This document shows positions 5,274-19,006 of a stretch of 64,000 nucleotides of DNA, piece after piece. Origin of the DNA: Amycolatopsis sp. WQ 127309 (lineage in GTDB: Bacteria; Actinomycetota; Actinomycetes; Mycobacteriales; Pseudonocardiaceae). Within the stretch, counting starts at the first letter, position 1, and each line of letters begins with the position of its first letter. The DNA is taken from contig NZ_CP095481.1 in assembly GCF_023023025.1 (NCBI RefSeq), positions 992,001 to 1,056,000 on the forward strand, in the 5' to 3' direction. The position numbers and the translations under genes were made by a program. The notes beneath the pieces were generated by a model. That model did no database searches. It saw nothing but the letters and a program-made list of their open reading frames with translations, and was not told the origin of the DNA.

Positions 5274-5424
5274 CAACGGCTCCTCGTCGGGCTCGGCGTC
5301 CGCCCCTTTGTACCTCGCGCACCCGGGTAAGGGATTTCCTACCAACGGACCTAGACGACGATCACCCCCATCGTGTTGATTGTTGAGCGAGTCTGTGCAG
5401 AGTTGCGCACTCCGGGAGGGAACA

Positions 5425-5913
5425 ATGCGTCGTCTTGTGGGAATGGCGGCCGCGCTGGCCGTCTGCGCCACGCTGGTCACGGTCACCCAAGCCGCGGCCG
5501 CGGAGCCCCAGTACTTCGCCGCCCAGCGCGTCGGCGACCGCCCGCCGATGGGCTGGAACAGCTGGAACAAGTTCGGCTGCGCCATCAACGAGGACCTGGT
5601 CCGCGGCGCGGCCGACGCGCTCGTGTCGTCCGGCATGAAGGACGCGGGCTACCAGTACGTCAACATCGACGACTGCTGGGCCGAACAGAACCGCACGGCC
5701 GACGGCAAGCTCGAACCGAACCACGAGAAGTTCCCGCACGGCATCAAGGCGCTCGCCGACTACGTCCACGGCCTCGGCCTCAAGCTCGGCATCTACACCA
5801 GCGCCGGCACGCTGACCTGCCAGAAGACCATGCCGGGCGCCCTCGACCACGAAGACGCGGACGCGCAGTCGTTCGCCGACTGGGGCGTCGACTACGTCAA
5901 GTACGACTTCTGA
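5425..5913 (+). pseudogene. Secreted GH27 alpha-galactosidase, N-terminal part, cut by the AICE
   Basis: The N-terminal part of a secreted GH27 glycoside hydrolase, preceded by GGAGGG and starting at ATG 5425. A Sec signal peptide ([18 protein letters not shown], cleavage after AAAA near residue 26) leads into the (beta/alpha)8 barrel: [38 protein letters not shown] and finally [10 protein letters not shown]. Residue 161, the Asp of K-Y-D, is the GH27 nucleophile. There the integrative element enters: one foreign codon (Phe) and a TGA at 5911-5913 end the frame. The remaining two thirds of the gene resume at 16848. If made, the fragment lacks the acid/base residue and should be inactive. Confidence 0.93.
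5901..5907 (+). repeat. attL core, GTACGAC
   Basis: The seven bases are identical to 16848-16854. They span the last base of the Lys codon and the Tyr and Asp codons of the GH27 active-site motif. Bases before it (GACTACGTCAA) are host gene; bases after it (TTCTGAAACC) are element. The strand-exchange region is therefore within this 7-bp core, a normal overlap length for tyrosine recombinases. Confidence 0.85.
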
Positions 5914-5921
5914 AACCTGGC

Positions 5922-5936
5922 GCTTCTGACCTGGGG
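5922..5936 (+). repeat. Element-end inverted repeat, left copy
   Basis: GCTTCTGACCTGGGG, 15 bases inside the left core, is the imperfect inverse of CCCCAGGTCAGAGC at 16817-16830, which lies 17 bases inside the right core. The one-base difference is an extra T. Placed symmetrically at both ends, these are candidate integrase or Xis binding sites next to the cores. Confidence 0.6.
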
Positions 5937-5974
5937 ACTTTCGGTGCGCCGGGGCTTTGACCAGGTGTTTTACG

Positions 5975-6035
5975 CCGGTTGCGTCCGGTTGCGTCCGGTT
6001 AGGTCCGGTCGTTTGACGGCCTGGTGACGGCCTGG
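5975..6035 (+). repeat. Left arm region: 10-bp tandem repeats and two GACGGCCTG copies
   Basis: Four tandem 10-bp units (CCGGTTGCGT, CCGGTTGCGT, CCGGTTAGGT, CCGGTCGTTT) occupy 5975-6014. They are followed by GACGGCCTG at 6015-6023 and 6026-6034. The same nonamer occurs three times at the right end (16756-16783) in the same orientation. This is the pattern expected for arm-type integrase sites flanking a core, so I assign it to attL; the role is inferred. Confidence 0.6.
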
Positions 6036-6224
6036 CTGGCCGGGCCTGCTCGGTCCAGAGAGTGAGTTGGTAGTGGCTGAACAGGGCGATCTGGTTCGGA
6101 CTGAGCTGGCGGCTGGACATGTGTCGAGTCCTCTCGTTTGTTCAGCTCTTCACGGCTCGCTAGCCGATGAGTCGAGTCGGAACCGGATTGCCTATTTGCT
6201 GCCTTTCCCTCGCCCCTGCCGCCT

Positions 6225-6288
6225 CTAGCGGTGAGCTGGCCGGGTCAAGGCACGCTTTCCCGCCTTGACGCGGCCAGCTCACCGCTAG
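6225..6288. repeat. 27-bp inverted repeat, very strong stem-loop
   Basis: Arms 6225-6251 and 6262-6288 pair at 26 of 27 positions around a 10-base loop (ACGCTTTCCC); each arm starts or ends with CTAGCGGTGAGCTGGCC or its inverse. It lies in the gene-free left end of the element (5914-6504). Candidates are a single-strand origin for rolling-circle replication, a transfer (clt) site, or a barrier to host transcription entering the element. Confidence 0.7.
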
Positions 6289-6377
6289 ACGCTGCGATGC
6301 GAGGGAACCTCTGGGGAGCCGCGTTGCGTCGTCGTCAGAGTGTTGCGGGGCAGCGATCATGCCGGGACACTTAATGC

Positions 6378-6420
6378 GGCCCCCGGCGCCACTCCCTCCC
6401 CCTCGGTGGCGCCGGGGGCC
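6378..6420 (+). terminator. 15-bp perfect GC-rich hairpin
   Basis: GGCCCCCGGCGCCAC (6378-6392) and GTGGCGCCGGGGGCC (6406-6420) pair perfectly around a pyrimidine-rich 13-base loop, followed by TCTTGG. It reads as a strong terminator upstream of the ANTAR-like gene, 85 bases before its start. The whole gap 5914-6504 holds only the arm repeats, this hairpin and the 27-bp stem-loop. Confidence 0.6.
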
Positions 6421-6504
6421 TCTTGGTCCGTGCCGAAAGTGCGGGATATCGGGGTGCCTGATCCAGTCGTCCTGCGTTCGGCGGGTGCCTGACTCAAGCT
6501 GACG

Positions 6505-6753
6505 GTGGTGACGAGTCCGATGGTGTTTCCGAGCGGCATGGATGGGCCCGACGACCGCTTGGTGCGCCTGTGGTTTGCTCACTGTTGGCGCGCAGTGGAC
6601 GACCTGATCGCCGTTGAACGGGCCACCGGAGTACTGATGGAGCGACGAGGCTGCGAGCCGACGCAGGCACGGGCGATCCTCTTGCGCGAAGCTAACGCGG
6701 CCCACCTGGCGCTGGAGGATATGGCCCGTGTGGTTGTCGCGCGACGGTGGTAG
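6505..6753 (+). CDS. ANTAR domain-like small protein
   Basis: An 82-residue protein, or shorter if it starts at the ATG at 6538. The region AVERATGVLMERRGCEPTQA followed by ILLREANAAHLALEDMARVV resembles the three-helix ANTAR RNA-binding domain (A-x-G-x-L-M-x-R-x-G plus a helix with the D-x-A motif). ANTAR proteins are usually antiterminators that bind paired stem-loops. No sensor domain is fused, so it would be a stand-alone ANTAR. Two large hairpins lie just upstream, but their loops (10 and 13 bases) are not the usual hexaloops. This is the first gene of the element; the GTG start is uncertain. Confidence 0.55.
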   Translation: MVTSPMVFPSGMDGPDDRLVRLWFAHCWRAVDDLIAVERATGVLMERRGCEPTQARAILLREANAAHLALEDMARVVVARRW

Positions 6754-6818
6754 TCGCCCTGCACTCAGCCAGGTTCCGGCCCTTCTGGTTGGGGCCTGCA
6801 TGTCAGTATCGTCAGAGG

Positions 6819-7319
6819 ATGGACCAGCCAGACCATGACCTGGCGAGGTTTCAGTCTCTGAACCAGCGTGAGGCTGCGGCTGACGCCCGTGACACCGAGT
6901 CCGTTGAGGGCGATCGGCTCACTGATGAACATGACCGGGCTGTCGATTGGCGCGATGACATAGCCCGTGCCAGAGGTCGGGCTTATGCACTGAGAATCAA
7001 GGTGGACGAGCAGATCCAGCGCCGCGTCGAGCTGTTGGCGCGGTCGCGGGAGATATTGGATCGCTTGCTGCGACGGCTGAACCGGATCGACGCTGCACGC
7101 GACGCCCCCGCCGTGTGGGCAGATCGGGAACGGGTCGAGGTTGAGTCGGCCAAGGCAGACAGCGCGTCGCTCGGCTCGGCGGATGTGGCTGCGGGGAACG
7201 ATGGTGTTCCGGCGGCGCGCGTGCGGGTGCCGAGTCGTCGGCGGGCTCGCCCGGCGGCCGGCCGGAGCGGAGCGGGAGGCCGGTCCGCCAAGGGCGGGAG
7301 CCCGCCGCACGCAAGGTGA
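6819..7319 (+). CDS. Hypothetical coiled-coil protein of the element
   Basis: A protein of about 166 residues from ATG 6819 that I do not recognise. Residues 1-100 are highly charged and predicted helical (ARFQSLNQREAAADARDT, later VDEQIQRRVELLARSREILD), consistent with a coiled coil; the last 60 residues are Arg/Gly/Ala-rich and likely disordered. The frame is also open upstream to 6747, where it would overlap the ANTAR-like gene, so the start is unsure; the AGAGG directly before ATG 6819 is too close to be a good ribosome-binding site. It probably forms an operon with the ANTAR-like gene and ends at a perfect hairpin. Confidence 0.5.
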   Translation: MDQPDHDLARFQSLNQREAAADARDTESVEGDRLTDEHDRAVDWRDDIARARGRAYALRIKVDEQIQRRVELLARSREILDRLLRRLNRIDAARDAPAVWADRERVEVESAKADSASLGSADVAAGNDGVPAARVRVPSRRRARPAAGRSGAGGRSAKGGSPPHAR

Positions 7320-7326
7320 CCCGTGC

Positions 7327-7345
7327 GCGCCGCCGCAGGCGGCGC
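7327..7345. terminator. Hairpin terminator between convergent genes of the element
   Basis: GCGCCGCC-GCA-GGCGGCGC is a perfect 8-bp stem with a triloop, 8 bases after the stop of the plus-strand gene at 7319 and about 55 bases from the end of the minus-strand phosphatase gene. It also marks where base composition drops from very G+C-rich to about half A+T. Confidence 0.6.
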
Positions 7346-7398
7346 CTTGATCCCATAGAGCCAAATTCGGCAACCCAATGCCAGACGCTAGCTGCCAT

Positions 7399-8184
7399 CT
7401 AGCGCAACCGATCGAGCAATGCAAGTTCGAGCCCTGGCGCTGTGGCGATTGTGGCAGTGGAACTGAAGTCGTGGCGCACGCCGGTCGCATCGACAACCAA
7501 CGCGCCAGCTTCTCTAGCGATCAAAACACCTGCCGCAGTGTCCCACGGCTTGTTAGCGAGTATGACGCACGCGTCCGTCCGGCCGTCTGCAACAAACGCT
7601 AGATCGAGCGCAGCAGATCCCCACATGCGAACACGCTCGACCTGTTCAGCAAGCATTCGAGTCACGGCGAACCGTCGTTCATTCTTCTTGGCGGCACCCG
7701 AACCGGTTGCGTAATCGCCTATTGAAACAATAGCGCGATCAATCTCGGTAACACTACTTGAATTGATCGGCTCTCCGTTGCAGAATGATCCGCCACCTTT
7801 AGAGCCGTAGTAATTGAGACCAAGGAATGGTGCCGTTATGACACCAATGACAGGCTCACCCCTATGAATCAAAGCTAACTGACTCGCACAAAGAGGAATT
7901 CTGTGCGCGAAGTTCGAAGTGCCATCTATCGGATCGAGGGCCCAGACAAACTCCTCAGATTCGTCTACCGAGCCGCCACCCTGCTCTTCGCCTAGGAAGT
8001 TAAAGTCCGGAGTCTTCTCCTCAAGGAAAGTGCGGACTTGTTCTTGAATCTTAATGTCCATGTCGGTGACAAGATCCCTATCGCCCTTCAAATGCACGCC
8101 ACCAGGGCCATCCTTTAACATAAGTTTGCTACCAATGGCAACCGCCTCCTGTGCAACAGCAAGAAGCTCTTTCAGGGCCTTCAT
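7399..8184 (-). CDS. Inositol monophosphatase-family enzyme (AICE cargo)
   Basis: A 261-residue member of the Li+-sensitive, Mg2+-dependent IMPase/FBPase/CysQ superfamily. All metal ligands are visible: Glu of FLGEEQGG, the ALDPIDGTSNF motif, and the second site KPWDTAAGVLIAREAG. The substrate could be inositol-1-phosphate, another sugar phosphate or 3'-phosphoadenosine phosphates; sequence alone does not decide. The start is ATG 8184, sharing ATGA with the stop of the upstream HTH-DUF5919 gene, so the two are translationally coupled. Base composition is near 50% G+C with A/T third positions, unlike every neighbour, which marks the pair as recently acquired cargo. Confidence 0.88.
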   Translation of the reverse strand: MKALKELLAVAQEAVAIGSKLMLKDGPGGVHLKGDRDLVTDMDIKIQEQVRTFLEEKTPDFNFLGEEQGGGSVDESEEFVWALDPIDGTSNFAHRIPLCASQLALIHRGEPVIGVITAPFLGLNYYGSKGGGSFCNGEPINSSSVTEIDRAIVSIGDYATGSGAAKKNERRFAVTRMLAEQVERVRMWGSAALDLAFVADGRTDACVILANKPWDTAAGVLIAREAGALVVDATGVRHDFSSTATIATAPGLELALLDRLR

Positions 8185-9104
8185 TTCAACACATCCGAAC
8201 CGCGCTCCCACATGGTCTCAAACACGGACGAAAAAGTATGAAAAAGTCCAGAAGGATGCTCATCCTGTCGTTCCAAAACCAGCGTTGGTGATTCAACACC
8301 TCTCGCATCAGGCAGGTAAGGCTGAACTATGCACAGGGTGTTGTCGATTACCGTGATATTGAATCGAACCGCTTCATCGTAGGTGCGAATATGCAAATTT
8401 GCACACGCATCATCCGAAAGCTTTGTTCGCAGTCGGCGCAATGCGTCGATATTCAGTTTGGTTAGCGTGATCAACACGCCATCAGGATGCGATTCTTCAC
8501 GCTCGCGTGATTTAATATTATAGCCGTCAGGATCAAGAAAGAGACATTTGACTATTGTTCCACGCTCAAGGAGTTCCTTCAATGCGCGATCCGAATACTG
8601 TTGACAAAGCATATTTAAAGAAAGTCCAACCATGCTGATATTCTCGGCATCATCAAACAGTTCATGCGGAGGCATTTCGTGCGCGAATTGTGGTCGAGTT
8701 TCAAATACGGCGGTAACGTCAGCCACTCCATCGCGCACGGAAGCAACCTGATTTGCGGTCTCGGCAATCAATATAGGCGACTTCGTGACGGGCGGTTCTG
8801 GCACGAAACCAATTCCTCCCGAATGTTTTTGGAAAAGCTGCTCGACCGTCCATCCGGGAAACATACTTTCCAGTATTCGACAGTGATGCGGATAAGGCAG
8901 GCCGATGATGTCACCCGCGAGCCAGCGATAAAACTGCGCTTTTTTTGGAAAGCTGTCCACGAGATCGTGATCAATTGCTTTGGCAAGCTTATTGTATTCT
9001 CGACAAAACATCCGATGGTTCTGCAAGTGACGCTGCCTGAGGAGCACTTTAAGCACGTTGGAGTGCTCTACCACGGCCGATCCCGCTCCCTCGATCTCTG
9101 TCAT
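8181..9104 (-). CDS. HTH regulator-like protein with C-terminal DUF5919 domain (AICE cargo)
   Basis: A 307-residue protein in two parts. Residues 15-95 (LLRQRHLQNHRMFCREYNKL to PHHCRILESMFPGWTVEQLF) resemble the atypical HTH region of actinobacterial regulators. Residues 150-305 (ISMVGLSLNMLCQQYSDRAL, KCLFLDPDG, HIRTYDEAVRFNITVIDNTL, CIVQPYLPDARGVESPTLVL) match what I recall as DUF5919, a PLD-like fold without catalytic His-Lys pairs. It overlaps the phosphatase gene by ATGA. In 8401-8460, 31 of 60 bases are G or C, far below the flanks. It could sense a signal and regulate the tandem repeats in its promoter; defence or metabolic signalling roles are speculation. Confidence 0.75.
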   Translation of the reverse strand: MTEIEGAGSAVVEHSNVLKVLLRQRHLQNHRMFCREYNKLAKAIDHDLVDSFPKKAQFYRWLAGDIIGLPYPHHCRILESMFPGWTVEQLFQKHSGGIGFVPEPPVTKSPILIAETANQVASVRDGVADVTAVFETRPQFAHEMPPHELFDDAENISMVGLSLNMLCQQYSDRALKELLERGTIVKCLFLDPDGYNIKSREREESHPDGVLITLTKLNIDALRRLRTKLSDDACANLHIRTYDEAVRFNITVIDNTLCIVQPYLPDARGVESPTLVLERQDEHPSGLFHTFSSVFETMWERGSDVLK

Positions 9105-9120
9105 GCAACCATCCTACCAG

Positions 9121-9181
9121 CTAGATGAGACATAGACGAGACTAGATGAGCAGTAGACGGTCTAGAGGAGACATACAGGGC
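9121..9181 (+). repeat. Three 20-21-bp tandem repeats (CTAGATGAG...) in the cargo/pra promoter gap
   Basis: Units start at 9121, 9142 and 9162 with CTAGATGAGACATAGACGAG, CTAGATGAGCAGTAGACGGT and CTAGAGGAGACATACAGGGC. They fill the gap between the minus-strand HTH-DUF5919 gene and the plus-strand pra gene. Regular two-turn spacing suggests a multi-site operator for an element-coded regulator, or iterons for the initiator. Confidence 0.65.
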
Positions 9182-9265
9182 GTCTTAATGGGACCGTCGT
9201 CGGCCGATAGTAGTGGTGGGGCCACTGCTGTGGTGGTCACCGCTACTAGAGAGGTTTCACACGAG

Positions 9266-9736
9266 ATGGCTATCACCAGGGATCACAGGTTCGCGATCGA
9301 GTTCCACGACGCTTTCCCCCAGGGGTTGGTGTTGGTGGGTGAGGTGTCGCCGGACAACGAGTATCAGTCGCGCGAAGACAAGGCGGCTGGTCGTCCGGTG
9401 CGTCAGCGGGTGGACGAGTTGACCGGTAAGCGGCAGTGGGTGTGCACGGTGACGGACCCGGACGAGATCAAGGCCAAGCGGGCGTCATTTGAGGTGACGT
9501 TGATTGCGGATGTTCAGCCGGTGCCGACGACGTCGGAGGTTCTGCCCGGTATGCGTCCGGTCGAGCTGGACGGGCTGACGGCGCAGCCGAAGGTGGCGGG
9601 GCAGGGCGAGTTCAAGTACCAGTCCTACGCGTTCCGTGCGACGGGTTTCAAGGCTGCTGCCAGCGGAGGAAACCGGGGTTCGGCTGGGAAGACGGCCGGG
9701 GGTCCGGCGCAGGAGCAGCAGAGCAAGGCGGCGTAA
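9266..9736 (+). CDS. pra: Pra-like activator of AICE replication, integration and excision
   Basis: A 156-residue protein resembling the Pra activator family known from pSAM2-type elements: it starts MAITRDHRFAIEFHDAFPQG, continues LVLVGEVSPDNEY and RQWVCTVTDPDEIKAKRAS, and ends GEFKYQSYAFRATGFKAA followed by a low-complexity tail. Pra switches on rep, xis and int expression, so it is the expected trigger of element excision. ATG 9266 is chosen because the family similarity starts there and AGAGAGG precedes it by about 11 bases; the frame is open further upstream through the tandem repeats. First gene of the long plus-strand element operon. Confidence 0.75.
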   Translation: MAITRDHRFAIEFHDAFPQGLVLVGEVSPDNEYQSREDKAAGRPVRQRVDELTGKRQWVCTVTDPDEIKAKRASFEVTLIADVQPVPTTSEVLPGMRPVELDGLTAQPKVAGQGEFKYQSYAFRATGFKAAASGGNRGSAGKTAGGPAQEQQSKAA

Positions 9737-9766
9737 TCGCGGTCGGGTTGAGTTGGATTCGGTGCG

Positions 9767-10210
9767 ATGGAAACCAAGAAAGTGGTTCGGGACTGGGAAG
9801 AGGCGTATCGCCGGTATCGGGCTGCCTCGGATGAGGTCGCGCGGGTACGGGCGTTCGATCCGGCTGTCTTAAATGAGATGGCGGATGCGTCTCATGCGGT
9901 GGCGGTCGCCTGGCGGCGCATCACGGTGGGTGCGAACCTGCCGTGGTGGTCGTTGGCGGCGACGTTGTCGGCGGCGGAGGCGTTCGAGGGGCAGACGCAG
10001 TTCTGGCGGCGGCGAGCGAAAGGAACGGCTCCTCCGGATCGGCCGGCGGGGCCAATCGCGGGAGGTAGCGAGGCTCGTGGGGAGTGGTTCACCGACCACG
10101 ATCCGCGTGGGTTGCCGGGACATTCTCCCGTCGTTTCGGGTGATGCGGCACCGCTTCGTCGTGGTCCGTCGCCGGTGCGTCGGCCTCGTCCGGACGGCCG
10201 GGGTGCGTGA
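9767..10210 (+). CDS. Hypothetical AICE protein
   Basis: A 147-residue protein that I do not recognise. The N-terminal 85 residues (VVRDWEEAYRRYRAASDEVA, then AVAVAWRRITVGANLPWWSL, AAEAFEGQTQFWRRRAKGT) are helical and amphipathic; the rest is Pro/Gly/Arg-rich and probably unstructured. It sits between pra and the first HTH gene, with 30 bp after pra and a 1-base overlap (TGATG) with the next start, so it is part of the same operon. Similar anonymous genes follow pra in other actinomycete elements, as far as I recall. No ribosome-binding site stands out. Confidence 0.6.
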   Translation: METKKVVRDWEEAYRRYRAASDEVARVRAFDPAVLNEMADASHAVAVAWRRITVGANLPWWSLAATLSAAEAFEGQTQFWRRRAKGTAPPDRPAGPIAGGSEARGEWFTDHDPRGLPGHSPVVSGDAAPLRRGPSPVRRPRPDGRGA

Positions 10211-10512
10211 TGGCGGAGTGCGAACGGGTGCTGTTTGAGGATGTGGAGGCGGGCACGTTCGTGCCGGTCGGGGTGCTGGTGACGCGAGTGCGTCATCTGC
10301 GCGGTCTGACGCAGCGGGAGGCGTCGGACCAGATTGGTATTGATATTCGAGCGTTGTCGTTGATCGAGACTGGTCGACGTACGGTCAAGGCAGTAGGGAT
10401 GTTGATCAGTCTCGCTGACGGCCTGGAGGTACCGCGCACGCAGTTTTTGGAATGGGTGACCAGCGAAATGGAGTTTCACCACACCGGGCTGCGCGGGCCG
10501 AACAGTGAATGA
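10210..10512 (+). CDS. Small XRE-type HTH protein 1
   Basis: A 100-residue protein with a central XRE/Cro-like helix-turn-helix (about residues 22-75): LVTRVRHLRGLTQREASDQI for helices 1-2 and IDIRALSLIETGRRTVKAVG for recognition helix and turn. The start ATG 10210 overlaps the preceding TGA (TGATG). It is the first of four small HTH genes stacked in this operon. Likely a DNA-binding regulator of element functions; targets are unknown. Confidence 0.75.
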   Translation: MAECERVLFEDVEAGTFVPVGVLVTRVRHLRGLTQREASDQIGIDIRALSLIETGRRTVKAVGMLISLADGLEVPRTQFLEWVTSEMEFHHTGLRGPNSE

Positions 10513-10792
10513 CACCAGGTTTCCGATCAAGCTGCGTGACGCTCAAGCGGATCTGTTGCGGCGAATGCCGTGCCGGGAGACGCCGTGGGCGGAGTGGGTG
10601 GACTTTCACCGCTACAACGCCCGGATGTTCGCCGCGATCGCTGAGACCGACCCGGCCCACAAGTGGGAAGCGTTGGCCTGTCACGGTATTCAGTTGCGGT
10701 GTGTGGAGCGGCTGACCAAGCGTCCGGAGTGGAAAGAGGACTACCAGGTCACACCGAACGACGGCGAGTCGAGCCACGGGGAGGTGTTGTGA
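10505..10792 (+). CDS. Small AICE protein, resembles the AMED_5909 family
   Basis: A 95-residue protein from GTG 10505, overlapping the previous stop by 8 bases and the next ATG by 1 base. The segment PWAEWVDFHRYNARMFAAIA with ETDPAHKWEALACHG looks like the small AMED_5909-type proteins I recall from actinomycete mobile regions; no function is established. It has no HTH and separates HTH protein 1 from HTH protein 2. The tight overlaps on both sides support it as a real, co-translated gene. Confidence 0.6.
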   Translation: MNDTRFPIKLRDAQADLLRRMPCRETPWAEWVDFHRYNARMFAAIAETDPAHKWEALACHGIQLRCVERLTKRPEWKEDYQVTPNDGESSHGEVL

Positions 10793-11094
10793 TGGACAGT
10801 CGTATCGGTCCGGGTCGTCGCCCGCTTGCGGTGTGGCTTCCCACGGTCCCGCCGATGCGGTTCGGTGTGTGGGTGGACAGGGCGTGTGCCGCACACGGGT
10901 GGTCGCACAAGGAGCTGTCGAGGCGTTCGGGGGTGTCGACGAACACGATCTACGCGATGGTCTATGCGCAGCGGGAATCGTGGTCACTGGCACACGTAGC
11001 CGCATTGGCGGACGCGTTCGGTGTTGACCGGGCAGTACCTGCGCTGCTGGCCCTTCGCGAGTTTGAAAGGGGTTTCGATGACGAGCGACGTTGA
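10792..11094 (+). CDS. Small XRE-type HTH protein 2
   Basis: A 100-residue protein starting at ATG 10792, which shares its A with the preceding TGA. An HTH lies at about residues 25-80: RFGVWVDRACAAHGWSHKEL then SRRSGVSTNTIYAMVYAQRE, followed by LAHVAALADAFGV. Its 3' end overlaps the next HTH gene by 17 bases in another frame. Part of the four-gene HTH stack. Confidence 0.72.
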   Translation: MDSRIGPGRRPLAVWLPTVPPMRFGVWVDRACAAHGWSHKELSRRSGVSTNTIYAMVYAQRESWSLAHVAALADAFGVDRAVPALLALREFERGFDDERR

Positions 11095-11404
11095 TTCGAT
11101 GGTTGCGCTGTCCGCAGGATCGACGTGGATGGTCTGCGCCGGACCCGAGGAGACGCTGCCCGTGCCGGATACGCGCATGGTCGGCGGGTGGATTCGCTGG
11201 CACCGCACCCGTGCCCGACTGTCGCAGAAGGCGACGGCAATACGGATGGGTACCTCGACAGACACACTGGTGGCAGTGGAGACAGGCCGGCGGGCTCTGA
11301 TTCAGATGGAGACGGCGGTACGGATCGCGGACGCGCTGCGCCTGTCGCGGGAGGAACTGGTAATCCGGGCTGTCTGGGACTTCCGCACGGTGGAGGACCG
11401 GTGA
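11078..11404 (+). CDS. Small XRE-type HTH protein 3
   Basis: A 108-residue protein starting at ATG 11078 behind GAAAGGGG. The XRE domain spans about residues 35-90: MVGGWIRWHRTRARLSQKAT, RMGTSTDTLVAVETGRRALI, ETAVRIADALRLSREELV. The 35-residue N-terminal extension is unremarkable. Overlaps: 17 bases with HTH 2 and 4 bases (GTGA) with HTH 4. Probably a DNA-binding regulator; target unknown. Confidence 0.75.
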   Translation: MTSDVDSMVALSAGSTWMVCAGPEETLPVPDTRMVGGWIRWHRTRARLSQKATAIRMGTSTDTLVAVETGRRALIQMETAVRIADALRLSREELVIRAVWDFRTVEDR

Positions 11405-11655
11405 GTGGCGGGGTGCCGGTCGGGAATTGGCTGCGAGCGCGACGCCAAGAGCTGAGGCAGAGCCCTGAGGCGATAGCACTACGGGCGGGTCTGTCCAAAT
11501 CGCACGTGGTGAACCTGGAAAACGGAAACCGGAAGCTGCGCAACGCGAAGGTCATGTTGCACCTGTCGAGCGCTCTCGGGGTGTCGCCGTCGTCGCTGTG
11601 GCTGTGCGTGGTGCAGGAGATCGAGCGAGAGGAGAACAAGATCTTCGGTCGTTGA
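11401..11655 (+). CDS. Small XRE-type HTH protein 4
   Basis: An 84-residue protein that is little more than one XRE domain: VGNWLRARRQELRQSPEAIA, LRAGLSKSHVVNLENGNRKL, HLSSALGVSPSSLW. The GTG at 11401 forms a GTGA overlap with the preceding stop. It closes the HTH stack and is followed by two long hairpins, so the first part of the operon may end here. A Cro/C1-like switch partner role is plausible but unproven. Confidence 0.75.
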   Translation: MSGGVPVGNWLRARRQELRQSPEAIALRAGLSKSHVVNLENGNRKLRNAKVMLHLSSALGVSPSSLWLCVVQEIEREENKIFGR

Positions 11656-11686
11656 TTCGCAAGCGTAACTGAATATCGACAATTCC

Positions 11687-11727
11687 GCGCGTGAGGACGT
11701 GCGATAAACAAACGCGTCCTCACGCGC
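11687..11727. repeat. 13-bp perfect inverted repeat
   Basis: GCGCGTGAGGACG (11687-11699) and CGTCCTCACGCGC (11715-11727) pair perfectly; a T-G and a G-C pair extend the stem to 15. It lies in the 156-bp gene-free gap between the HTH stack and the transfer/replication genes. Candidate terminator of the HTH operon or part of the replication origin. Confidence 0.6.
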
Positions 11728-11744
11728 ACAATCGACCTGTTAAA

Positions 11745-11788
11745 GCGCAGAACCGGCCCCTGGCTACCAACCTGTTCCGGTTCTGCGC
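11745..11788. repeat. 12-bp perfect inverted repeat
   Basis: GCGCAGAACCGG (11745-11756) and CCGGTTCTGCGC (11777-11788) pair perfectly around a 20-base loop, 24 bases before the next start codon. With the preceding 13-bp repeat it makes a double stem-loop just upstream of the zinc-ribbon/tra/rep genes. Terminator, antiterminator or origin roles are all open. Confidence 0.6.
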
Positions 11789-11811
11789 CTGTTCACTGGA
11801 GTAAGCGAACA

Positions 11812-11991
11812 ATGCAAACAATAAATGATGACAACCAACGCCCGTCAACCGGGGTCACCCGGATGCGCTGCGCGAAATGTAGGAGGTTCGCCCGTCTGCT
11901 GCCGGGCGAGGACCGTTGTGCCCCGTGCCTGGGGATGTTGCCGCTGCTGCTGGTGCTGCCGAGTGCTGGGGTGCGGGGTGGTCGCCGATGA
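11812..11991 (+). CDS. 59-residue zinc-ribbon protein upstream of the transfer gene
   Basis: A short ORF from ATG 11812 to TGA 11991 encoding 59 residues. It contains two Cys pairs, MRCAKCRRFARLLPGEDRCA followed by PC, that is C-A-K-C-x13-C-A-P-C, a zinc-ribbon-like knuckle. The stop codon overlaps the start of the FtsK-like gene in ATGA, which argues that it is a real, coupled gene. Upstream, ACTGGAG lies about 12 bases before the ATG. Small zinc-ribbon proteins are common partners of transfer or replication proteins in mobile elements; its exact role is unknown. The C-terminus is hydrophobic (MLPLLLVLPSAG). Confidence 0.65.
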   Translation: MQTINDDNQRPSTGVTRMRCAKCRRFARLLPGEDRCAPCLGMLPLLLVLPSAGVRGGRR

Positions 11992-13571
11992 ACGCACACG
12001 CGGTGATGATGGTGACGCTGGTCGGCGGCGGCCTGGCGGTGCTGCTGTGGGTCCTGGCGAAGATCGGTCGTGCCCTGGCCGGTCTGGCCGAGTTGCTGGC
12101 GGCCGTGGCGGTCGTCGGGATCGCGCTGTGGGGCCTGCTGCAGGCAGTGGGCTGGATTGTTCGGCAACTGGTCACGCACAGGCGGACCTGCGTGACCTTG
12201 GTGGCCGCGTGGGCCTGGTGGCACTGGCTGGGCTGGGTGTCTCTCGCCATCACGGTCGCGGTGCTGGGCCTGGTCCAGCTCGTCTGGTGGCGGCTGGACG
12301 CGGTGGGCTATGACCAGTGGTGCGGCCGGTGGGTGCGCTCGTGGTGGCTGCGGTGGACGCTGTACGGGCAGAAACTCGGTGGCTGGCTGACCGCCTGCGG
12401 CTTGGTGGTCCGGGACGCCTCGGTGCCGGTGGATGTGACGGTGTCGCTGATCGGGCGTCGACGCAATTCGGTGTCGCGCAGTGAGAAGCGCGCCGATGCG
12501 GTGGCGGTGCCCAAGTTGCTGTCCGTGCGTTCCGGTCCTTCTTGGGATGAGGTGCGGGTTCGGCTGGTGGCCGGCCAGACCCCCGAGGAGTTCGACCAGG
12601 CGGCCCGCGCGCTGGCGGTGGCTCGGAAGGTCACCCGCTGCCAGATTCGCGAGCTGGAACCGGACGTCGTGTCGATCGACTACATGCGCCGGGACCTGCT
12701 GGCCTCGCCGGTGACGTGCCTGCCAGTGCCGGACCTGGTCGCGGTCGATGGCACCGGGGTGGATCTGCGGGCCGTCTATGCGGGGTCGACGGAGTATGGC
12801 AAGCCGTGGCGGCTCCCGCTGGTCGGCACGGGGTCTCACACGCTGGTGGCCGGGGCTACGGGGTCGGGGAAGAACTCGGTGATGTGGTGCCCTCTGGTCG
12901 CGGCCGCGTCGGCGATCCGGGCCGGTGTTATCCGGGTGTCGGGGATTGACCCGAAGGCCATGGAGCTGTCCTACGGGCGTGGGATCTTCGCCCGTTACGG
13001 CCGGTCCGGGAAAGAGGCCTTGGAGGTCTTGGACGCGCTGTTGGATGAGCTGGAGAACCGCAAGCGTGTCTTTGCCGGGAACACGCGTGAGGTGCCGATC
13101 TCGGCCGAGTATCCGGTGGAGCTGCTGGAGTTCGACGAGATCGGGGCGTTGACCAAGTACACCGACCGCAAAACCCGTGAGTCCATTGTGGAGAAGCTGG
13201 CGATCCTGACCACCCAAGGTCGGGCGCTGGGGTTCACGGTGCGGGGGTATGTGCAGGAGCCGACGAAGGACACGGTTCCGGTGCGGGAGCTGCTGCCCCG
13301 GCGGATCGCCATGCGGCTTACGTCGAGGACGCAGGTTCCGATGGTAATGGGTGACGGCGCGTATGAGCGGGGCGCGTGGGCCAACCGCATCCCCGAGTCG
13401 GCGGCGGGTGTCGGCTACGTCTGGGGCGAAGGCATCCGCGAACCCCTGCGGGTCCGTGCTGGGTGGGTGCCGGATCAGACGATCAAACAGTTGGAGCACT
13501 ACGTCACCAACGGTGGTGCCCAGGTGGTCAACCTGGCCGATCGGCGCGCGGGCGAAGGGAGGTCGGCATGA
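11988..13571 (+). CDS. FtsK/SpoIIIE-like conjugal transfer ATPase (TraSA/TraB type)
   Basis: A 527-residue DNA translocase of the kind that alone moves double-stranded DNA of actinomycete elements between hyphae. Two or three membrane segments lie in residues 5-105 (MVTLVGGGLAVLLWVLAKIG, VAVVGIALWGLLQAVGWIV, VSLAITVAVLGLVQLVWW). The motor follows, with Walker A GATGSGKNS at about 289-297 and Walker B LLEFDEIGAL near 382. A C-terminal gamma-like region is not evident. The ATG at 11988 overlaps the zinc-ribbon gene (ATGA); its stop overlaps the rep start (ATGA), so the three are translationally coupled. Hexameric pore formation is family knowledge. Confidence 0.9.
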   Translation: MNAHAVMMVTLVGGGLAVLLWVLAKIGRALAGLAELLAAVAVVGIALWGLLQAVGWIVRQLVTHRRTCVTLVAAWAWWHWLGWVSLAITVAVLGLVQLVWWRLDAVGYDQWCGRWVRSWWLRWTLYGQKLGGWLTACGLVVRDASVPVDVTVSLIGRRRNSVSRSEKRADAVAVPKLLSVRSGPSWDEVRVRLVAGQTPEEFDQAARALAVARKVTRCQIRELEPDVVSIDYMRRDLLASPVTCLPVPDLVAVDGTGVDLRAVYAGSTEYGKPWRLPLVGTGSHTLVAGATGSGKNSVMWCPLVAAASAIRAGVIRVSGIDPKAMELSYGRGIFARYGRSGKEALEVLDALLDELENRKRVFAGNTREVPISAEYPVELLEFDEIGALTKYTDRKTRESIVEKLAILTTQGRALGFTVRGYVQEPTKDTVPVRELLPRRIAMRLTSRTQVPMVMGDGAYERGAWANRIPESAAGVGYVWGEGIREPLRVRAGWVPDQTIKQLEHYVTNGGAQVVNLADRRAGEGRSA

Positions 13572-15229
13572 CCACCACGGAAGATCCCCAGGTCGGGGCC
13601 ATGCCGGCATCGGGTCAGGCGTCCCCGGTGGAACGGGTCCGGGGCGCGCTGGCCGCTGACGTGGTCAAGGCGACGGCGGAGAAGCACGGGGTGTGTGTCC
13701 GGCCGTTCACGATGGAAGTCGGGGACACCGAAACCGGGGAGGTCCGCTACGTCCCGGTGCCGTGTGGGTCCGCTGTGGAGTCGGTGTGTCTGCCGTGTGC
13801 GCGGAAGGCGAAAGCGTTGCGGCAGGCCCAATGCCGGGAAGGCTGGCACCTGACCGAAGAACCGGTGATCACCCGGGAGAAGCCGTCGGAGACGCAAACC
13901 GAGTTGTTGACCTACCGGGCTGACCTGGCGGGGCACTACCGGGACGTAGTGGCAGCCGGTGATGAGGCGGAGGCGGAGGAACTGCGCGCCGAAGTGGCCA
14001 CTGTAGACGTCGAGTTGCGGGAGTCGGGGATGACGGGGCGCCTGCCCGCGCTCGACGTGCCGGACCGGAAGGCGGTGAAGCGGTCGACGAAGCGGCGGCA
14101 GGACGCTCCGAACCTGCCTCGGCGGAAGGTGGCCAAGACGACGGTGGGGCGGGAGTTCGCGGGGAAGTTCCGGCCGTCGATGTTTGTCACGCTGACCTGT
14201 GACACCTACGGCCGGGTCCGGCCTGATGGGTCCCCGGTTGACCCGGCGAGCTATGACTATCGCCGGGCGGCTCGGGATGCGGTGCACTTCGCGGCGCTGG
14301 TGGATCGGTGGTGGCAGAACCTGCGCCGTGTCGTGGGCTGGGATGTGCAGTACTTCGCGACGGTGGAGCCGCAGAAGCGGGCCGCTCCGCACCTGCACAC
14401 GGCGTTGCGCGGGGCGATCTCGCACGACACCATCCGGTTGGTCACCGAAGCCACCTACCATCAGGTGTGGTGGCCCGCTCATGACGAACTGGTCTACACG
14501 GACCGGAAACCGTTGTGGGACCCGGATAGTCGTTCCTTTGTGGACCCGGAGACGCGGGAGGCGCTGACGTCGTGGGATGACGCGGTGGAGGCGGTGACCG
14601 AACCGGCGCACGTGGTGAGGTTCGGTGCCCAGGTGCACTCCAAGGGCATCCTCGGTGGGACGGAGGAAGCTGGCCGGCATATCGGCTATCTCACGAAGTA
14701 CTTGACGAAGTCCACGGGTGAGGTCGTCGACGCCGACACCTTGGGTCAGCGGGATCACCACGAACTGTTGCACGCCCACTTGGCGGTGACGCCGTGTTCG
14801 CCGCGCTGTGCGGTGTGGCTGCTGTATGGGATCAATCCGAAGGGAGCGAACGGGAAGACGACTCCGGGGCACTGCAATGGGCGTGCGCATCGCCGGTCGA
14901 CGTTGGGGCTTCCGGGTCGGCGGGTGTTGGTGTCGCGCAAGTGGTCGGGCAAGACGGTGGCTGAGCACAAGGCGGATCGGCGGGGGTTCGTGTTGTCGGC
15001 GTTGGCGGCGGTCGGAATCGTCAAGCCGGAACCGGCTCCGGATCGGTTCGTGTGGCGCAAGGTCGAGCCCGGGGACACGCATTGCCCGCCTCGGGATCAT
15101 CTGGTGATGCGGGCGATCGCGGAGCGGATTACGTGGCAGGCGGAGTACACGCGGGCGATGCTGGCCGCTGCTGATCCACCAGGTCCGGAAACTTCGGCAA
15201 CTGCGACGACGACCGTGGAGGCGGCCTGA
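13568..15229 (+). CDS. repSA: RepSA-type rolling-circle replication initiator
   Basis: A 553-residue initiator like RepSA of pSAM2. The rolling-circle motifs are present: motif I FVTLTCDTYG (about residues 205-214), motif II PHLHTAL with the His-x-His metal site (about 275-277), and motif III GYLTKYLTKS with Tyr candidates and Lys (about 373-382). A Cys-rich N-terminal segment (VCLPCARKAKALRQAQC) and C-terminal Cys/His residues (HLAVTPCSPRCAVW) may form zinc sites. Together with the Tra protein it would replicate the excised circle. Its start overlaps the tra stop. The double-strand origin is not located; rep genes of this kind often hold it inside or just after the gene. Confidence 0.9.
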   Translation: MTTTEDPQVGAMPASGQASPVERVRGALAADVVKATAEKHGVCVRPFTMEVGDTETGEVRYVPVPCGSAVESVCLPCARKAKALRQAQCREGWHLTEEPVITREKPSETQTELLTYRADLAGHYRDVVAAGDEAEAEELRAEVATVDVELRESGMTGRLPALDVPDRKAVKRSTKRRQDAPNLPRRKVAKTTVGREFAGKFRPSMFVTLTCDTYGRVRPDGSPVDPASYDYRRAARDAVHFAALVDRWWQNLRRVVGWDVQYFATVEPQKRAAPHLHTALRGAISHDTIRLVTEATYHQVWWPAHDELVYTDRKPLWDPDSRSFVDPETREALTSWDDAVEAVTEPAHVVRFGAQVHSKGILGGTEEAGRHIGYLTKYLTKSTGEVVDADTLGQRDHHELLHAHLAVTPCSPRCAVWLLYGINPKGANGKTTPGHCNGRAHRRSTLGLPGRRVLVSRKWSGKTVAEHKADRRGFVLSALAAVGIVKPEPAPDRFVWRKVEPGDTHCPPRDHLVMRAIAERITWQAEYTRAMLAAADPPGPETSATATTTVEAA

Positions 15230-15252
15230 CCAAGCAGCGAGGGGAGGCGGGG

Positions 15253-15495
15253 ATGACGGTGCATGTTCGGGTGGTGGAGCTGGAAGGGCTGTGGGGGCCG
15301 GAAGAACTGGGGGCTTTTCTCGGCATTCCGGAGAAGACATTGCGGGATTGGCGATTGAGGGGATACGGCCCTGCGTTCATCAAGCTGGGTAAGCACGTCC
15401 GGTATGACCCGGCGGTGGTGCGGGCGTGGGTAGTCGAGCTGAGCGATTCTGGCGAGGATGACGCTTCGGAAATTCCGATGATGAGGAAGGGGTAA
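15253..15495 (+). CDS. xis: Excisionase (Xis), MerR-like HTH
   Basis: An 80-residue basic protein with a winged HTH of the excisionase/MerR type: LWGPEELGAFLGIPEKTLRD then WRLRGYGPAFIKLGKHVRYD and VVRAWVVEL. This is the standard Xis of actinomycete elements, which bends attL/attR and directs integrase to excision. The ATG at 15253 is preceded by GAGGGGAGG. It follows repSA by 23 bp and precedes int by 4 bp, the usual rep-xis-int order. Confidence 0.88.
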   Translation: MTVHVRVVELEGLWGPEELGAFLGIPEKTLRDWRLRGYGPAFIKLGKHVRYDPAVVRAWVVELSDSGEDDASEIPMMRKG

Positions 15496-15499
15496 GAGG

Positions 15500-16773
15500 A
15501 TGGGTCACATTCAGGACCGGTGGTTTCGGGACCAGGTCGACCCGGTCACTGGTGACGTTGTGCTGAACAAGAAGAACAAGCCAGTGCAGGAGCGGACCGA
15601 GCTGCACGGGAAGGGGCTGCGGTACAAGGTCCGTTATCTGGACCCGGACAAGATCGAGCGGTCCCGTTCGTTTCCGGACGGGAAACTGACTGAGGCGCAG
15701 AAGTATCTGACAAAAATGGAAACGCGTTGTACGACGGTACCTACGCGGACCCGAGGGCAGGTGAGGTTCAGTTCGGCAAATACGCATGGGAGGTGCTGGC
15801 CGGCCGATCCAGGGACGAGTCTACCGTGGCTAATATCAAATCCCGAATGGAAAGTCAGGTCATTCCGTTTCTTGGACGGAAGCTGCTGCGGTCGTTCACC
15901 ACCCCGGAGGTGATCCGGAAATGGCTGGCATGGATGGCCGATCAGGACAACCCGATTTCAGTGAACTACCAGCGGCAGGTGTTCGACCTGGTGTCATCAA
16001 TCCTTGATGCTGCCGCCGCCGATGGGAGGATCAAAAAGAACCCGTGCCGAGATAAGTCGGTCACGGCTCCGGTACCTGTGGCGCGAAAGGTGACGCCGTG
16101 GAAGGAGTCTCGGCTTCACCGTGTCGAGTTGGCACTACCGGCTCGACACAAGCCGTGCGCTACGCTCGGGGCCGGCCTCGGGCTGCGGCAGGGTGAGATT
16201 TTCGCCTTCAGCCCGGACAACATCGACCGTGAACGGATGGAATACCGCTGCACACGGCAGATGGTCATGCTAAACGGGGTGCGAAAGTTCAAACTTCCTA
16301 AAGGGCACAAGACCCGGGTGATTCCACTGGGATATGGCGTGCTGGACGAAATCGACGCGTACATGGAGGAGTTTCCGCCAGTAGCGGTCACGCTGCCATG
16401 GGCAGAGCAGGACTCGAAAGAGTTCGAGACGGTGAACGTGCTCATGGTCAACGGTGCTGGGGAGCTGTATACGCGGCAGGCGTTCTGCAACGTCATCTGG
16501 CGGCCCACGTTCAAGCGAGCCGGACTGTCCTACGAAAACCGTGAGGATGGGATGCACGCGCTGCGGCACCTGTTCGCCTCAGCCATGCTCGAACGCGGGG
16601 TGTCGATCAAAGCGTTGGCCGCGTTTCTCGGGCACTCCTCGGAGGCGTTCACGCTCAAGGTGTACACGCACCTCATGCCCTCCAGCTTCGACCGGGCTCG
16701 GGATGCGATCGATGATCTGGTCAGGCCGCGCCGGAGCCCGGAGAATCGCCGTGGGGACGGCCTGACGGCCTGA
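15500..16773 (+). pseudogene. int: Tyrosine integrase (Int) with one-base frameshift
   Basis: The gene starts at ATG 15500 in one frame (MGHIQDRWFRDQV, KGLRYKVRYL, AQKYLTKMETR) and continues from about 15727 in another (LYDGTYADPRAGEVQFGKYA onward). Joining the two needs one extra base between 15726 and 15727 and gives about 424 residues, the normal length. The arm-binding/SAM-like N-terminus is in the first part. The catalytic set is in the second: Arg in GLRQGE (about 229), Lys in LPKGHKTRV, HALRH (about 352-356), GHSS, and nucleophile Tyr in KVYTHLM (about 388). If the shift is real, the element cannot make full Int and is locked in place; it could also be a sequencing error. TTG 15727 could start a truncated catalytic fragment. 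Confidence 0.85.
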
Positions 16774-16783
16774 CGACGGCCTG
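16756..16783 (+). repeat. Right arm region: three GACGGCCTG copies
   Basis: GACGGCCTG occurs at 16756-16764, 16764-16772 and 16775-16783, covering the int stop codon. Two more copies lie at the left end (6015-6034) in the same direction. No other tight cluster of this nonamer was noticed in the element, so these are good candidates for arm-type integrase sites. Confidence 0.6.
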
Positions 16784-16816
16784 AGCTACTGATAGCCCAT
16801 CCAGGCGGGGCGAGAT

Positions 16817-16830
16817 CCCCAGGTCAGAGC
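16817..16830 (-). repeat. Element-end inverted repeat, right copy
   Basis: CCCCAGGTCAGAGC is the inverse of GCTTCTGACCTGGGG at 5922-5936 apart from one extra T there. It lies 17 bases inside the right core, mirroring the left copy 14 bases inside the left core. Confidence 0.6.
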
Positions 16831-16847
16831 ACATTTCGGTGTCATTC

Positions 16848-16854
16848 GTACGAC
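16848..16854 (+). repeat. attR core, GTACGAC
   Basis: Second copy of the 7-bp core. What follows (AACTGCAACAACGAGGGC) is host gene encoding Asn-Cys-Asn-Asn-Glu-Gly, the continuation of the GH27 active-site strand. What precedes (GGTGTCATTC) is element. Confidence 0.85.
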
Positions 16855-18336
16855 AACTGCAACAACGAGGGCCGCGACGCGATCGAGCGCTACACGAAGA
16901 TGGGCGAAGCGATCGAGAAGACCGGTCACCCGATGGTCTACGCGCTCTGCGAATGGGGCGAGAACGACCCGTGGACCTGGGGCCGCGACGCCGGCGCGCA
17001 GCTGTGGCGCACCACCGGCGACATCAGCGACAACTGGGGCAGCATGACCGGCATCCTCGACCAGCAGGTCGGCTTGGAGAAGTACGCCGGTCCGGGCGGC
17101 TGGAACGACCCGGACATGCTCGAGGTCGGCAACGGCGGCATGACCGACGCCGAGTACCGCTCGCACTTCTCGCTCTGGGCGTTGCTGAACGCACCGCTGC
17201 TGGCCGGGAACGACCTGCCCGCGATGTCGCCCGCGACCAAGAAGATCCTGGAGAACAAGGACGTCATCGCGCTCGACCAGGACTGGGCGGGCACGCAGGG
17301 CCACAAGATCCGCGACGACGGCGACACCGAGGTCTGGGCCAAGCCGATGTCCGACGGCTCGGCCGCGGTGGTGCTGTTCAACCGCGGTTCCGCGACGGCG
17401 GCGATGAGCACGACGGCGAAGGACCTCGGCCTCAAGGCGCGCGACTACCGCGTCCGCGACCTCTGGAGCGGCACCGAAACCGAGACCGCCGGCACTGTCC
17501 GCGCCGCCGTACCCTCCCACGGCTCGGCCGTGTTCCGCGTCTGGCCCGCCACCCACCCGGCGGCCGCACCGCTGACGACGCTGGCCCTGCCGAGCCCGGA
17601 CTACGTGCCCGCCGACCGGCCGCTGACCACGACGCTGAAGGTGACCAACGACGGCAGCACGCCGATCGCGGACGTCCGCACCAGCGTCACGGCGCCCGCG
17701 GGCTGGAAGCTGGACGGGCCCGGTTCGTTCACGGTGCCGGTCGTCCTGCCGGGCAAGTCCTGGCAGAAGCAGGTCACCTTCAAGCCGGCGGCTCCGGCCG
17801 GCGACCACGTCACGCTCACCGCGAAGGCGAGCTACCTGACCCTGTGGGGCAAGCGCGACCTGACGTCGGAAGGCACGTCACCGCTCGTCTCGCGGCCGGC
17901 GGCGGGGACGACGGCGTTGTCGAAGGCGCCGTGGATGTCGTCCGACAACGGCTGGGGCCCGGTCGAACGCGGCACGAGCAACGGCGAGGCCCAAGCGGGT
18001 GACGGCCACAAGATCACCATCGCCGGCACCGGCTACGACGACGGGATCGGCGCCCACGCGCCGTCGAGCGTGCGGATCTACGTCGGCGCCGGCTGCACGT
18101 CGGTCAGCGCGCTGGTCGGGCTGGACGACGAGAACTCCGGTGGCAGCGCGGGGTTCCGCATTCTCGGTGACGGCAAGGAGCTGGCCGCCACCGGCGTCAT
18201 GCACCCCGGCGACCAGGCGCGGCCGCTGACCGCGCAGCTCTCCGGCGTCCAGGTGCTGGAGCTGTCGGTCGACGACGGCGGCGACGGCAACACCAACGAC
18301 CACGCCGACTGGGCGAACGCCACGGTCACCTGCTGA
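16848..18336 (+). pseudogene. GH27 alpha-galactosidase, C-terminal part with NEW3 and NPCBM domains
   Basis: The remaining 493 residues of the split enzyme (residues 162-654 of the rejoined protein), with no start codon or promoter of its own in the right place. It holds MVYALCEWGENDPWTWG, the acid/base motif GGWNDPDMLEVGNG, and the end of the barrel; then a C-terminal beta domain (LFNRGSATAAMSTTAKDLGL), a NEW3-type domain (about TLALPSPDYVPADRPLTTTL to HVTLTAKASY) and a terminal NPCBM carbohydrate-binding domain (SSDNGWGPVERGTSNGEAQA to HADWANATVTC). It ends in an 11-bp convergent overlap with the GntR gene. It would be functional only after exact excision of the element. Confidence 0.93.
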
Positions 18337-19006
18337 GGTCGATGAGCCAGGCTTCGGCGTCGCGGAGGTAGCGGTCCAACGCGGCCTCCGCGACGTCGAA
18401 CCGGCCGCAGCGCAGGTCTTCCAAGATCTGCTCGTGGCAGTCGAGGAACGGCTCGTAGAACTCACGGGTGTTCTCGTTGAGCACGAAGAACAACCGGGTC
18501 TCGGCGAGCACCTGGCGCATCGTGGCGGAGATCCGCTCGCTGCCGGCGAGGTCGGCCAGCGCCTGGTGGAAGTGGATGCTCGCGGTGCCGACCGCCGGCC
18601 AGTCCTCGGCCGCCGCCGCCGCGCGGCCGCTCCGCAACGCGCCCTCGGCCGCCGTCAGGTCCACAGTGGATCGCTCGGCCGCGCGGCGCAGGGCACCGCA
18701 TTCGGTGGCCCGGCGCACGACGTAGAGGTCTTCGATGTCCTCTGTGGTCAGTTCGCGCACGAACACGCCGCGGTTCAGCTCGTGCACGGCCAGCCGTTCG
18801 TGGGCCAGCAGCTGGAACGACTCGCGCAGCGTGTTGCGCGAGACGCCCAGCGCCGAGCTGATCACCGGCTCGGAAAGCCGTTCACCGGGGGCGAAGACGC
18901 CGTCCGTGATGTACTGGCGCAGGATCGCGGCCACCCGCTCGGCCGTGCCGCTGCGCGCGAGCAGGTGCCGCTCGCGCTCCAGCCCCGATGCGTCCACAGT
19001 GGACAT
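18326..19006 (-). CDS. FCD domain GntR family regulator
   Basis: A 226-residue regulator: N-terminal winged HTH (about residues 20-85, RVAAILRQYITDGVFAPGER, then LGVSRNTLRESFQLLAHERL) and C-terminal all-helical FCD ligand domain (about 95-220) with the metal/effector residues in FHQALADLAGS and DCHEQILEDL. ATG 19006 lies within a TCCACAGTGGA palindrome. It is the last gene of the minus-strand operon that starts at 25157, 10 bp after the SDR stop, so it is probably the local repressor; the 25-bp palindrome at 25169 is its likely operator. Its 3' end overlaps the GH27 gene. Confidence 0.9.
   Translation of the reverse strand: MSTVDASGLERERHLLARSGTAERVAAILRQYITDGVFAPGERLSEPVISSALGVSRNTLRESFQLLAHERLAVHELNRGVFVRELTTEDIEDLYVVRRATECGALRRAAERSTVDLTAAEGALRSGRAAAAAEDWPAVGTASIHFHQALADLAGSERISATMRQVLAETRLFFVLNENTREFYEPFLDCHEQILEDLRCGRFDVAEAALDRYLRDAEAWLIDLSR

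Follow-up and report, generated by a model that had tools for sequence, protein, structure and literature searches.

A pSAM2-type mobile element inserted at the catalytic Lys-Tyr-Asp codons of GH27 genes in Amycolatopsis and related genera

Introduction

What interrupts an alpha-galactosidase gene at the very codons of its catalytic motif, and could the interruption be a choice of target, an accident or a switch? The question is raised by the 64,000-nucleotide stretch of Amycolatopsis sp. WQ 127309 analysed here (contig NZ_CP095481.1, positions 992,001 to 1,056,000; hereafter 'the window'), in which a mobile element separates the two parts of a GH27 gene (5425-5907 and 16855-18336). A first-pass annotation had identified the region as an actinomycete integrative and conjugative element (AICE), a type of conjugative mobile element of soil actinobacteria, and the Pfam modules described below confirm a pSAM2-type AICE. 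From sequence comparisons we consider it very probable that the tyrosine integrase of this element recombined its attP site with an attB site inside the GH27 gene, and that the KYDNC motif is a recurring landing pad.

Results

Insertion at the Lys-Tyr-Asp codons of the GH27 gene

Two copies of GTACGAC bound the element on the + strand, the attL core at 5901-5907 and the attR core at 16848-16854, giving a core-to-core length of 10,947 bp. The direct repeat comprises these 7 bp in full, the adjoining base being mismatched on either side. When the flanks were joined by script, a single GH27 frame of 655 codons was obtained, with VDYVKYDNCNNEG at the junction and no internal stops. The gene is split at Lys159-Tyr160-Asp161, and the core consists of the third base of the Lys159 codon and the codons of Tyr160 and Asp161. 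Unjoined, the 5′ part (5425-5913, + strand, recognized from intact homologues) terminates as KYDF*, with a stop contributed by the element. The 3′ part (16855-18336, + strand) carries by Pfam the remainder of Melibiase_2 (PF16499) and Melibiase_C, NPCBM_assoc and NPCBM domains. The joined catalytic part matches the alpha-galactosidase 1UAS, which we take to be the rice enzyme, with E = 7.5e-131, and Asp161 aligns opposite residue 130 of 1UAS, presumably the Asp nucleophile. The target thus has the Melibiase_2 fold with the catalytic Asp in K-Y-D-x-C. Judged by eye, the joined N-terminus looks like a signal peptide, and the enzyme is called secreted here in that qualified sense. The 7-bp repeat by itself is weak proof of insertion, since the window contains 19 copies of the heptamer where 7 are expected.

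The Pfam matches inside the element comprise RepSA, FtsK/SpoIIIE, a tyrosine integrase, an HTH_17 protein and three HTH regulators, a set that fits the module definition of AICEs in the available part of PMC3218068. The RepSA replication initiator lies at 13376-15229 (+ strand, open reading frame (ORF) as listed; PF20199, E = 1.8e-97) and the FtsK/SpoIIIE-domain transfer protein (Tra) at 11916-13571 (+ strand, ORF as listed; PF01580, E = 1.3e-8). The integrase (PF00589, E = 7.4e-15) is recognized although its ORF is split by a frameshift. RepSA, FtsK/Tra and Int are the same three modules that pSAM2-type AICEs have.

Empty sites and conservation of the target

The uninterrupted gene is present in relatives. 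In the syntenic genome G066, the left flank of the window matches at 94.6% over the adjoining 1.8 kb and ends at L169:10668, and the right flank matches at 94.0% over 9.2 kb and starts at L169:10662, so that the two flanks overlap by exactly the 7-bp core. G042 (88-89% near the junction) and G010 (80% left, 73% right) give the identical 7-bp flank overlap. The first-pass annotation had called for a search for intact GH27 orthologues in element-free relatives; these were found, and their junction matches the joined flanks, reading KYDNC in all 30 of the best-scoring intact homologues. Its claim that the core encodes the Tyr and Asp of the GH27 motif and that the insertion is exact is borne out by the repeat coordinates and the empty-site overlap, while the scripted join and the empty site support the loss of the full-length product and the expectation that exact removal would rejoin the frame.

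GH27 matches with E ≤ 1e-40 were obtained in 61 of 80 genomes of the genus. Among the 30 intact homologues TACGAC is present in 29 and the full GTACGAC in 20; in the other ten the Lys codon ends in A, not G. Scored against the consensus of these homologues, the 6-mer TACGAC ranks 34th of 1171 windows (97%), and the 21-mer around the site ranks 74th of 1156, being identical in 50% of homologues against a median of 3%. When the window's joined sequence was used for scoring instead, the rank was 272nd of 1170 for the heptamer and 440th of 1156 for the 21-mer. The idea of a conserved landing pad, also put forward earlier, is upheld as far as TACGAC goes, but 'guaranteed' conservation is too strong because the ten homologues differ at the Lys codon. 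Two further GH27 genes of the window's genome (L032 and L033) have GTACGAC at KYD and are both unsplit there; one of the pair has the full GTACGACAACTGC.

Parallel insertions at the same motif

Integrase queries were used to search 80 genomes of the genus, 390 genomes of the family (four candidates scored per genome) and GTDB r220 contigs, from which the best 80 of 203 loci were taken. Loci were then tested with GH27 or, in 22 cases, by Pfam analysis of a total of 30 ORFs. A search for other elements ending in GTACGAC at GH27 genes had been suggested, and five more were found in the KYD motif. Two are in A. saalfeldensis, in two different GH27 genes (C40, 9,794 bp; C48, 15,774 bp); the others are in Crossiella sp. 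S99.2 (right junction in L041, left junction in L184 about 500 bp from the contig end), in Lentzea flava (12,704 bp) and in G215, which belongs to another genus of the family (about 18.5 kb). Four GH27 insertions were among the best 80 of the 203 GTDB loci (L040, L041, L042, L101). All six elements, that of the window included, have GTACGAC at both ends and a right flank beginning AACTGC. The left junction reads KYD-x-stop in every case, x being F in the window and C40, L in C48, N in Crossiella, M in L. flava and I in G215, and both GH27 halves are open in all six.

In the 390 family genomes, a pattern combining the element end with the GH27 core was matched ten times, in 9 of the genomes. 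Five are element junctions in GH27, spread over 4 genomes; those in G188 and G230 fall in GH27 genes unsplit at the motif, and those in G153, G201 and G327 are without a GH27 or integrase match. The count of five junctions is a lower bound, the pattern demanding CCAGG before the core, which is absent at the L. flava junction.

The C48 GH27 gene shares its neighbourhood with that of the window. Since the relatives G066, G042 and G010 are empty there, and since the window integrase resembles that of C40 (86%) more closely than that of C48, two independent insertions appear more likely than one inherited insertion. A tree-based count of GH27-targeting origins, in which elements with no assigned target were scored as non-GH27, was not used as evidence. 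In Saccharopolyspora subtropica (L094 2716-5306) a GH27 gene on the opposite strand neighbours a related integrase and is not split internally.

Inverted arms around the 7-bp overlap

Comparison of element ends identified a right core-type arm of attP at 5908-5918 (TTCTGAAACCT, + strand) and its inverted partner, the left core-type arm, beside attR at 16837-16847 (+ strand). Over nine elements the arms form inverted repeats centred on the 7 bp, with 61 of 108 positions pairing. The other 16 centres gave 18-33 pairs, and shuffled arms averaged 28.2 (sd 4.6), with none of 5000 reaching 61. For the six GH27 elements alone, the row sums are 42 pairs at the centre and at most 25 at any other. Inverted core-type arms around a short attP/attB overlap can be recognized from sequence alone. 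Such arms around a 7-bp overlap are the layout of a tyrosine-recombinase core site. The right arm (about NNNTGANACC) contains a TGA in frame with the host ORF, and this provides the stop of KYDx*, so that no special origin need be sought for it.

Relatives with other targets

At an integrase identity of about 54% or more, 16 distinct loci were counted among the matches listed. Six of these are in GH27, two in GH18, one in an MFS gene and one in an ORF without Pfam match (L043 = L153); two have a non-tRNA site adjoining the integrase (an 18-base repeat in L044 = L006 and the same sequence in L007). L152 and three partial matches (L091, G029, G025) have no target call; for L091 (A. circi) a GH27 match was not found in the DNA searched.

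The GH18 elements, in G030 and G067 (L038 1423-13489 and L037 1396-11244), have similar arms around the overlap GATCTCG. They split a chitinase gene lying on the opposite strand, which is truncated as NEIV*; its Pfam GH18 match is slightly under the cut-off, and its best solved relative is an exochitinase (E = 9.5e-63). In G061 (L039 8365-17002) the overlap is GTCGATG, and an MFS transporter gene is split within the domain, both halves matching MFS_1. The integrase match of this element stops at residue 373 of 421, and this integrase may also be defective. In Lentzea albidocapillata (L043 about 6769 = L153), where the integrase clusters with its L. flava counterpart, GTACGTC stands at the expected place, one base from GTACGAC, and the target is a different ORF, the one without Pfam match. 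As near relatives with a different overlap split GH18 or MFS genes, these cases point to the DNA sequence as what sets the target.

In RepSA and Tra, the window element shares 90% identity with the G030 element in GH18 and slightly less, 88%, with C40. Its integrase, by contrast, is nearest that of C40, which is itself 71% identical to the integrases of the GH18 elements. This fits an exchange of the integrase along with the target, as in AICE03.

Could the GH27 gene be incidental, merely one of many loose coding sites that the integrase takes? The close relatives in GH18, MFS and another ORF are in keeping with this, as are the 22 loci examined with Pfam, mostly more distant, where the integrase adjoins an intact acyl-CoA dehydrogenase gene (6 of 22) or aldehyde dehydrogenase gene (1 of 22). 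However, six elements, two of them in one genome, share the 7 bp and the codons, and elements with other targets have other overlaps. We regard an incidental use of GH27 as unlikely.

A tRNA gene as attachment site was rejected. ARAGORN, which would miss tRNA fragments, found no tRNA gene in the window or in 30 loci with 1.5-kb flanks. It likewise found none when the 1 kb next to the integrase end was scanned in 62 of the 80 best-scoring GTDB loci.

State of the integrase

Residues 1-77 of the window integrase are encoded in one frame (15500-15726, + strand, from alignment to relatives) and the catalytic part in another (15727-16773, + strand, from Pfam and alignment), with a one-nucleotide shift between them. 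A programmed frameshift was rejected because none of five aligned relatives shares the shift. The RepSA, Tra and Xis-like ORFs of the element are open. The L. flava integrase is decayed, with an in-frame TGA and its first 153 residues unmatched (L101, L185), and the flanking GH27 halves are both open; the integrases of the other four GH27 elements (C40, C48, Crossiella and G215) are open. The five further elements, the inverted-repeat arms and this frameshift had escaped the first-pass annotation.

That annotation had also raised the possibility of a genetic switch resembling active lysogeny or regulated gene integrity, in which controlled excision toggles the alpha-galactosidase and the element is kept for that purpose. 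The intact rejoined frame, the open GH27 halves in six of six and the open integrases in four of six would agree with it, as would an Xis-like gene that is present here and matched in C40, C48, Crossiella and G215. Precedents exist as well, for example the prophage in hlb of S. aureus described in the available excerpt of PMC6597384. However, the integrase is frameshifted in the window and decayed in L. flava, which leaves the switch unsupported. Furthermore, the insertions are uncommon (at least 5 junctions in 4 of 390 family genomes), of the relatives searched, L. flava alone has a match to the inositol monophosphatase (IMPase)/DUF5919 cargo, and open GH27 halves fit a recent insertion equally well. 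We therefore think a switch very unlikely. Elements acting by regulated gene integrity are alike in that the 3′ coding sequence is not replaced, so that the gene is disrupted (PMC10111431, in the excerpt available); the window element differs in that its recombinase is broken by the frameshift, and it thus lacks the functional recombinase of regulated gene integrity or active lysogeny.

An assembly join or ancient fusion, in which the GH27 halves never formed one gene, would suit a repeat of merely 7 bp and a heptamer common in the window, but it is excluded by the syntenic, uninterrupted homologue in G066 with the exact overlap, by the same overlap in G042 and G010 and by KYDNC in 30 of 30, and it is further opposed by a genome consisting of a single contig of 11.13 Mb and by five parallel cases at other loci.

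Discussion

We favour integration by a pSAM2-type AICE at a recurring site. The integrase would recombine attP with an attB whose core is GTACGAC at the Lys-Tyr-Asp codons, with strand exchange taking place across the 7-bp overlap. The right-arm TGA falls in frame and ends the host ORF as KYDx*, and precise excision would regenerate the GH27 gene. Because the integrase is frameshifted in the window genome, excision is unlikely there unless helped in trans, and the enzyme would in effect be knocked out. The KYDNC motif would serve as a conserved landing pad recurring in GH27 paralogues, and relatives would hit other genes when the integrase and the 7-bp overlap differ.

Several points weigh against this explanation. 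The nine elements are related, and the arm statistics are not made up of independent observations; moreover, of the nine overlaps, the two in GH18 and the one in MFS were positioned inside a longer repeat by taking symmetry into account. The repeats exceed 7 bp in four of the six GH27 elements (Crossiella 12 bp, GTACGACAACTG; C48 9; L. flava 8; G215 8), and the 7 bp are taken as the core because they are the part common to all six. The Crossiella halves sit on separate contigs, each at a contig end, and their pairing is an inference. The full heptamer is not unusually conserved, ranking only 305th of 1170 against the consensus (67% versus a median of 47%). The integrase frameshift could be a sequencing error rather than a mutation. 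Finally, one survey sees, in its available part, no overall correlation of integrase sequence with site (PMC9513070).

The earlier description of AICEs as established users of tRNA genes holds in part. Those with tyrosine integrases lie in the vast majority at tRNA 3′ ends, the pSLS subfamily excepted, according to the available part of PMC3218068, whereas the window lineage splits a coding gene internally. The same source places some serine-integrase AICEs in protein-coding genes, and in the accessible text of a Streptomyces survey protein-coding genes make up 14 of 51 insertion sites (PMC9513070). That text describes AICE03 in rlmN, which is alike in occupying a coding gene and in that, within its family, divergence of the integrase is accompanied by a change of site; it differs in having an 11-nt direct repeat, versus 7 bp here, and the excerpt mentions no catalytic-codon target (PMC9513070).

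AICEs in coding genes and a prophage in a secreted-enzyme gene are already known. The phage in the lipase gene geh is a further secreted-enzyme example. The phage phiSa3 in hlb likewise interrupts the gene of a secreted enzyme, but in the portion of PMC6597384 at hand it is a phage whose cue-responsive excision has been studied, while the window element is an AICE known from its sequence. That AICEs of several genera repeatedly use an attachment site with the catalytic codon of a glycosidase family at its centre appears to be new; in the open-licence literature searched, no title or abstract start among the matches listed reports an AICE in an alpha-galactosidase gene.

These elements provide a natural case in which the 7-bp overlap of an integrase coincides with catalytic-residue codons, and this recurs in the GH27 genes of Amycolatopsis, Crossiella, Lentzea and the genus of G215, four genera in all. 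Two testable ideas follow. Constraint on the protein sequence of the active site may preserve an attachment site from host to host, and AICEs may switch landing pads by swapping the integrase together with the overlap. A bolder proposal, which we consider doubtful, is that an AICE lineage uses the catalytic-motif DNA of secreted glycosidase paralogues as multi-copy landing pads and, where the integrase is intact, may reversibly silence extracellular polysaccharide hydrolysis, the attP arm giving the in-frame stop. If multi-copy landing pads are real, a single genome could accommodate several elements that are not arranged in tandem, which is the situation in A. saalfeldensis. The insertions also serve as a warning that two-fragment GH27 annotations in Pseudonocardiaceae may be element insertions.

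Other features of the element

An Rfam scan of 5000-19000 gave no match, an IMG/VR scan found no relatives of the element, and PADLOC gave no match on seven element proteins. Upstream of the integrase, an HTH_17 Xis-like protein (15253-15495, + strand; PF12728) is a putative directionality factor. HTH (XRE-like) regulators, assigned by Pfam, are encoded on the + strand at 10207-10512, 11078-11404 and 11401-11655, and an AMED_5909-family small protein at 10505-10792 (+ strand; NF041510). A repeat search found a 34-nt inverted repeat with a 10-nt loop at 6218-6295, a possible replication or transfer site and perhaps a single-strand origin; it is matched in L036 and L039 and in none of the others among nine loci searched. 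Two cargo genes lie on the - strand, one for an IMPase-family protein (7399-8211; PF00459) and one for a DUF5919 protein (8181-9104; PF19319). This pair (7399-9104) recurs in the L. flava GH27 element (L185 6802-8492) with 49-51% identity.

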